Virus record (IMG/VR): IMGVR_UViG_3300042905_003454
Coordinates: 1 to 64,000 of that record
Length of the DNA: 64,000 nucleotides
Source: a virus
Direction: 5' to 3' (one strand)
Shown: positions 1 to 326 of the stretch, piece by piece
Position numbering within the stretch: the first letter of the stretch is position 1
Layout: each line of letters begins with the position of its first letter
Translations under genes and position numbers: made by a program
The notes under the pieces: generated by a model
Seen by the model: only the letters and a program-made list of their open reading frames with translations
Databases searched by the model: none
What the model was told of the DNA's origin: nothing

Positions 1-35
1 AAAAATCCCGGTTTTTCAGTCGCGGGAAAACCGGG
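1..35 (-). terminator. rho-independent terminator after the tmRNA
   Basis: On the minus strand a 9 bp stem CCCGGTTTT/AAAACCGGG (27-35 with 7-15) with an 11-base loop is followed by a run of T. It ends the tmRNA transcript. The hairpin might remain as a 3' element of the coding RNA piece. Confidence 0.8.
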
Positions 36-48
36 AAACCCCACTGCT

Positions 49-87
49 TTAAGCAGCCATCCGCATTGGTGCGGCTTTTATATTTGC
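49..87 (-). other. tmRNA tag-peptide reading frame (ANIKAAPMRMAA)
   Basis: The frame starts at resume codon GCA (85-87) and runs A-N-I-K-A-A-P-M-R-M-A-A to TAA (49-51). The bases just before the resume codon read CAGTT, like the UAGUC that sets the frame in E. coli tmRNA. The stop codon sits in the loop of a small hairpin (CTGC/GCAG), as in known tmRNAs. The tag ends in Ala-Ala, the residues needed for recognition by ClpXP-type proteases. The interior is basic and lacks the acidic NDE core of many proteobacterial tags. Confidence 0.88.
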
Positions 88-100
88 AACTGTTTATTTA

Positions 101-124
101 CGACACTTGTTACCCGTGTCGGGT
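101..124 (-). other. tmRNA pseudoknot PK1
   Basis: On the minus strand ACCC (121-124) pairs with GGGT (112-115), and the loop GACAC (116-120) pairs with downstream GTGTC (102-106). This is a textbook H-type pseudoknot lying 13 bases before the resume codon, the place PK1 occupies in tmRNA. Confidence 0.85.
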
Positions 125-326
125 ATCTCCTTCTTCAATACTCTGCACTGATCGATGCCTGTCGGACCCGTGAATGGATCCGGGGAGATTCGAACTCCCG
201 TGTCATATGCATTTCTATCCGAGATCAACAATACCAAAAGCGCGACGAGGGGCCTGCACCCATGCTCAACCACTGCTTGCAAGTCAATGGTCCTAGTCAG
301 CATCACACACTGAACCGCGCATAAAA

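Follow-up and report, generated by a model that had tools for sequence, protein, structure and literature searches.

tmRNA is the RNA that rescues stalled ribosomes. Transcripts of its circularly permuted form are cut in two by tRNA processing enzymes, and the Rfam family RF04321 (tmRNA_permuted) is described together with its background in the same paper (PMC11915505). In 18,146 phage genomes, 53 two-piece tmRNAs of isolated phages have been reported, 50 of them marine or aquatic; one was described in the T4-like phage Melnitz, and a glutamine riboswitch was reported for Melnitz and for Pelagibacter phage Mosig (PMC9004378). Five phages have a permuted tmRNA that exceeds the Rfam cut-off: Melnitz, Mosig, the Synechococcus cyanophage S-SSM7, Stenotrophomonas phage DLP_6 and Caulobacter phage CcrColossus. 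The loci in DLP_6 (KU682439.2 102838-103059) and CcrColossus (JX100810.1 132369-132662) have no tmRNA feature annotated.

The window analyzed here comprises the first 64,000 of the 70,959 bases of an IMG/VR virus record. A permuted tmRNA gene lies at the left end of this contig, on the minus strand, adjoining genes for tRNA-Tyr, tRNA-Thr and tRNA-Asn. Melnitz and Mosig (Kyanoviridae) likewise combine a permuted ssrA with a T4-like phage, and Mosig also shares G3.U70 in the TLD and a tag ORF; however, the Mosig spacer is 47 nt long with CCA encoded, and the Melnitz gene spans 333 nt. S-SSM7 (GU071098.1 21008-21227; L407, L409) is T4-like and permuted, with a 5-nt spacer (CTCAG), no CCA and G3.U70, but it has another PK1 and tag and matches RF04321 about 27 bits more strongly. 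One-piece phage tmRNAs such as that of Schiekvirus (Enterococcus phages) are also phage-encoded in a tRNA cluster, whereas their gene order is linear and their match is confined to the T-arm/acceptor region. Upstream of the window tmRNA, we found no Rfam match to the glutamine riboswitch. The original prediction had regarded a permuted form in a T4-like phage as unusual, a view that the 53 reported cases and the five phages above do not bear out: the kind is already known and widespread in phages, and the window gene is a genuine, not unusual, member of it.

The gene set of the window is T4-like (a gp43-like polB, portal, terminase, ribonucleotide reductase, scaffold, sheath and baseplate wedge). 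Its closest annotated relatives are Kyanoviridae cyanophages and Mosig, at 41-50% identity, and nucleotide searches returned no close relatives among annotated phages. Alignment of the portal against genome contigs gave just three distant matches (47%) of mixed taxa, so we assign no host; that this T4-like phage is probably from fresh water is a guess. An HNH homing-endonuclease-like gene (1109-1525, minus) overlaps the tRNA-Asn gene of the tRNA cluster that bears the tmRNA.

Identity and conservation of the tmRNA gene

RF04321, in which Rfam merges alpha, beta and cyano tmRNA, matches positions 235..49 of the minus strand at 51.7 bits against a curated cut-off of 47, a margin of 4.7 bits (E = 2e-9 in a search of a 400-nt stretch). 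The match to beta_tmRNA (RF01850) reaches 25 bits against a cut-off of 84, and the Rfam search listed no alpha or cyano match; by these searches the window tmRNA therefore falls outside all three named bacterial subclasses, although it surpasses the RF04321 gathering score and has all the tRNA-domain helices of that family. ARAGORN did not call the gene, and a simple scan found no minus-strand promoter. The MFE z-score relative to dinucleotide shuffles is -3.37.

The gene order is permuted, with the 3' tRNA-like half upstream of the 5' half and tag ORF, and every helix that had been predicted was found, on the minus strand (Table 1). The TLD combines a 7-bp acceptor bearing G3.U70 and A73, a 5-bp T stem and a D-loop analogue without a D stem. 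P2 links the two pieces, GGTAT/ATACC is also present, and PK1 precedes a tag that opens with an alanine resume codon and ends in AA before the stop (GCA AAT ATA AAA GCC GCA CCA ATG CGG ATG GCT GCT TAA). The conserved tmRNA starts at 235: in clade relatives the left boundary of the acceptor piece, GGTATTGTTGA, is sharply conserved, and the sequence upstream is variable. The range first proposed, 1-318, holds good for the tmRNA at 235..49 and its terminator; positions 239-320 belong to a separate tRNA-like RNA.

Table 1. Features of the tmRNA locus, in window coordinates
Feature	Position	Strand	Sequence, evidence or remarks
tRNA-like RNA (TLS)	239..320	-	model R1, 83.9 bits; the window sequence is within the model's own alignment
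Acceptor piece	175..235	-	RF04321 match; 5' end GGTATTG, P2 3'-side strand, T arm, CGGATCC, A73
P2	211-203 with 151-144	-	TGCAT(a)TGA with TCAGTGCA; 8 pairs, one bulge
T arm	199-183	-	GGGAG TTCGAAT CTCCC
Acceptor 3' strand	182-176	-	CGGATCC; discriminator A73 at 175
Spacer (IVS)	170..174	-	TTCAC, from sequence; no CCA encoded
Coding piece	49..169	-	RF04321; GGGTCCG, D-loop analogue, P2, PK1, tag ORF
Acceptor 5' strand	169-163	-	GGGTCCG; 7/7 pairs, including alanine-identity pair G3.U70
PK1 pseudoknot	102..124	-	ACCC GACAC GGGT AACAA GTGTC; stem covariation
PK1 stem	120-116/106-102	-	GACAC/GTGTC
Tag ORF	49..87	-	ANIKAAPMRMAA, from translation; resume codon GCA, stop TAA
Stop-codon hairpin	42..54	-	CTGCTTAAAGCAG (CTGC TTAAA GCAG); paired in 52/52 relatives
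Rho-independent terminator	1..35	-	CCCGGTTTT...AAAACCGGG + T5; sequence and relatives; contig end within the T run

Relatives were gathered via DNA polymerase and DNA patterns. Twelve virus records, related or distant, hold permuted tmRNAs above the RF04321 cut-off, and orthologous genes, all above it, occur in at least 10 related contigs. Covariation was assessed in an alignment of 52 distinct clade sequences with the spacer removed. The acceptor is paired in all 52, one position shows as many as four pair types, and G3.U70 and A73 are kept in every sequence. Compensatory changes occur in the T stem and in P2, where several pair types are found, and the PK1 stem (S2) is changed on both sides in 6 of the 52 (AT to TA, CG to TA). 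The stop hairpin shows a compensatory change at one pair, and the terminator pairs are largely kept, again with compensatory changes, in the relatives that align there. This covariation in 52 distinct relatives rules out chance as the source of the tmRNA fold, and together with the RF04321 score it upholds the proposal that this T4-like phage encodes a circularly permuted tmRNA. Of the two outcomes named beforehand as refuting that proposal, neither the lack of a significant covariance-model match nor the lack of compensatory changes in acceptor, P2 and PK1 was observed. We are highly confident that the window holds a genuine circularly permuted ssrA in a tRNA cluster, whose two-piece processing, charging and tagging are predicted from sequence. 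T4-like phages of uncultured, probably freshwater, bacteria are thus confirmed to carry their own two-piece tmRNA.

A further tag hairpin, CCGCA/TGCGG, failed column by column in the relatives, although other hairpins occur there.

Tags of 12 residues, ending in AA and in the same frame, are encoded in about 31 of the 52. In the other group, about 21 distinct tmRNAs (L200, L204, L217, L221, L232, L236, L241 and others), an extra base follows the resume codon (GCAAAAAATAATTGC...), so that the AA-ending tag does not share the frame of GCA. Read from GCA, the sequence gives AKNNC and a stop, or a longer run-on, and the next frame holds a 12-codon tag ending AMAA. From these sequences, either the resume codon would be shifted by one base or the tag would be frameshifted.

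Short spacers and the predicted processing

We propose that the transcript would start upstream and end at the terminator (35-1), and that its two acceptor strands would pair, joined by a 6-nt loop of A73 and TTCAC. Cleavage before G169 would fall to host RNase P, and 3' processing by the host would remove TTCAC and append CCA; the products would be a ~61-nt acceptor RNA and a coding RNA, kept in contact by the acceptor, P2 and related helices. G3.U70 would direct the attachment of alanine to the TLD. Together with the host's SmpB and EF-Tu, the RNA would enter stalled ribosomes, switch them to the phage frame and add ANIKAAPMRMAA as a tag for host proteases. The likely benefit would be ribosome rescue maintained during infection, for example while host RNA and mRNA are being degraded. 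The scheme assumes that the host supplies SmpB, alanyl-tRNA synthetase, RNase P and CCA-adding enzyme; a search of the 71-kb record, which is incomplete, revealed no SmpB gene, and the tmRNA would accordingly depend on host SmpB. It may, as first suggested, replace or out-compete the tmRNA of the host.

The five-base spacer had seemed very short for processing into two RNAs. We place it against an IMG/VR pattern search for any permuted tmRNA with G3.U70 and a spacer of 1-30 nt, a range that covers part of the full length distribution; the pattern itself prescribed just three of the acceptor pairs and, in the T stem, no more than one side of a single pair. At least 113 viral contigs besides the window have spacers of 3-30 nt with at least 6 of 7 acceptor pairs and full T stems, and lengths of 5, 6 and 7 nt are the commonest among the matches listed. 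Six of 120 candidates among the matches listed were dropped for poor acceptor pairing. In permuted tRNA genes elsewhere, spacers go down to 1 nt (PMC3978253). Given these contigs and the 5 nt of S-SSM7, a 5-nt spacer is ordinary for phages and the objection finds no support. Spacers of 3-7 nt are common in phage permuted tmRNAs, which offers many natural substrates for studying how an acceptor loop that is closed is handled by RNase P and 3' enzymes.

A short spacer might instead block processing, in which case the one-piece RNA, its acceptor capped and thus not chargeable, would act as a decoy against host trans-translation by binding SmpB or ribosomes. The loop is indeed just 6 nt, the need of RNase P and 3' enzymes for a free end is unsettled (PMC3978253), and phage DS6A has a tmRNA-like RNA, lacking a CDS, whose expression inhibits host tmRNA (PMC11915505). 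However, G3.U70, A73 and the AA-ending tag persist through sequence change, and a decoy could do without them; more than 40 other contigs among the matches listed also have spacers of 5-7 nt. Spacers that start with CCA, down to exactly CCA in L369, moreover imply a 3' end that is used; in L369, one RNase P cut would free both mature ends. We consider the decoy improbable and retain the processed two-piece tmRNA.

A separate tRNA-like RNA upstream

The TLS has four helices: a 7-bp acceptor-like helix, a D-like arm, a 7-bp anticodon-like arm and a T-arm-like hairpin with the loop TGCAGGC. Across its variants, 88.7% of cells are paired versus 36-51% with the partners slid, a control that somewhat favours the structure because this was drawn partly by eye on the same sequences; 13 of 21 pairs show changes on both sides. 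No Rfam family matched the TLS even at E = 10. It does not classify as a tRNA: neither ARAGORN nor RF00005 matches it, and TGCAGGC stands at the T-loop position versus TTCRANN. The anticodon-like loop varies (TTGCAA, CTAGAA, GTACAA), and the TLS may for that reason not be a decoding tRNA. Its 34 variants, 77-105 nt long (GCGTAG...GGGTGCAAGTCCCTCGCTACGC), come from the window and from L160, L164, L166-169, L174, L247 and L256-L268, and model R1 finds copies solely in this phage clade (1.2 Mb of phage loci searched).

Reading 1-318 as one RNA, with 239-320 an integral upstream domain of the tmRNA, would fit a structured element that many relatives have at a distance of 3-4 nt before the acceptor piece. 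Against this, L161-163, L165 and L183 carry no TLS ahead of their orthologous tmRNA and have an ORF or tRNA-Tyr in that place; the TLS stands elsewhere in the tRNA cluster in some contigs (e.g., L247, L256), and it has its own closing helix. The one-RNA reading is, in our judgment, improbable, and the sequences place the TLS as a separate RNA outside the tmRNA.

Spacer modules in the clade

Within the clade, spacers are of three kinds: 5-6 nt in the window and its close relatives, where they read TTCAC, CTATAC, CTTTAC or CTTAC; about 71-99 nt (type A); and 165-173 nt (type B). Of the 19 matches to the clade's short-spacer pattern, five (L180, L181, L186, L193, L195) are not tmRNAs; they seem to be coincidental hits within coding sequence.

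When the window is compared with relatives that have a long spacer, most sequences show no difference from a point before PK1 as far as the resume codon, whereas identity is 67-84% in the acceptor piece and 57-76% in the 5' portion of the coding piece; by sequence, the two tmRNA halves either evolved at unequal rates or underwent recombination. That the gene is a pseudogene or a functionless host-derived remnant of packaging, to which the weak match to bacterial subclass models might point, is refuted by conservation already and has a negligible chance of being right, given the identical PK1-to-resume-codon segment in most relatives and syntenic orthologues with strong compensatory change in phages that show up to ~25% difference between their DNA polymerases.

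The type A spacer RNA, ~70-100 nt, occurs in L160-L165, L199-L201, L203-L205, L225, L226 and others. It is closed by a helix GCC/GGC (GGC/GCC in L205), and the complementarity of its hairpin loop CUGCAA to UUGCAG in another loop, replaced by CUGUAA/UUACAG in L160, suggests that the two loops kiss and covary. The type A (IVS-A) pattern had no match in bacterial or archaeal genomes (GTDB genome contigs).

The type B spacer RNA, ~165-173 nt, is the tmRNA spacer of L208, L209, L216, L245, L247, L252 and L257. Its 5' part is related to stand-alone tRNA-like RNAs (GGTGATCGGCGTGGT...ATGGGTTTAAATCCCATATCACC) in the same tRNA clusters (L162 765-831, L201, L210, L212, L225, L261), and in sequence it looks as if an RNA gene had been inserted into the tmRNA spacer. 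The spacer modules of the relatives matched no Rfam family, and the window phage is without such modules.

We regard it as an even call whether the clade's permuted tmRNA gene is a landing site for undescribed structured RNAs, with interchangeable spacer modules (or 5-6 nt in their place) and a tRNA-like RNA often upstream. The spacer would then be dispensable in this clade, and the window's 5-6-nt class a shrunken spacer. The modules and the tRNA-like RNA may guide precursor processing, or they may be selfish or regulatory RNAs; with the unclassified RNAs around them, the modules are a more novel and more open lead than the tmRNA itself.

The S-SSM7 permuted tmRNA is annotated merely as a hypothetical CDS (SSSM7_025). 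Since ARAGORN makes no call in the window and the S-SSM7 gene passes for a hypothetical protein, phage tmRNAs are likely under-counted.
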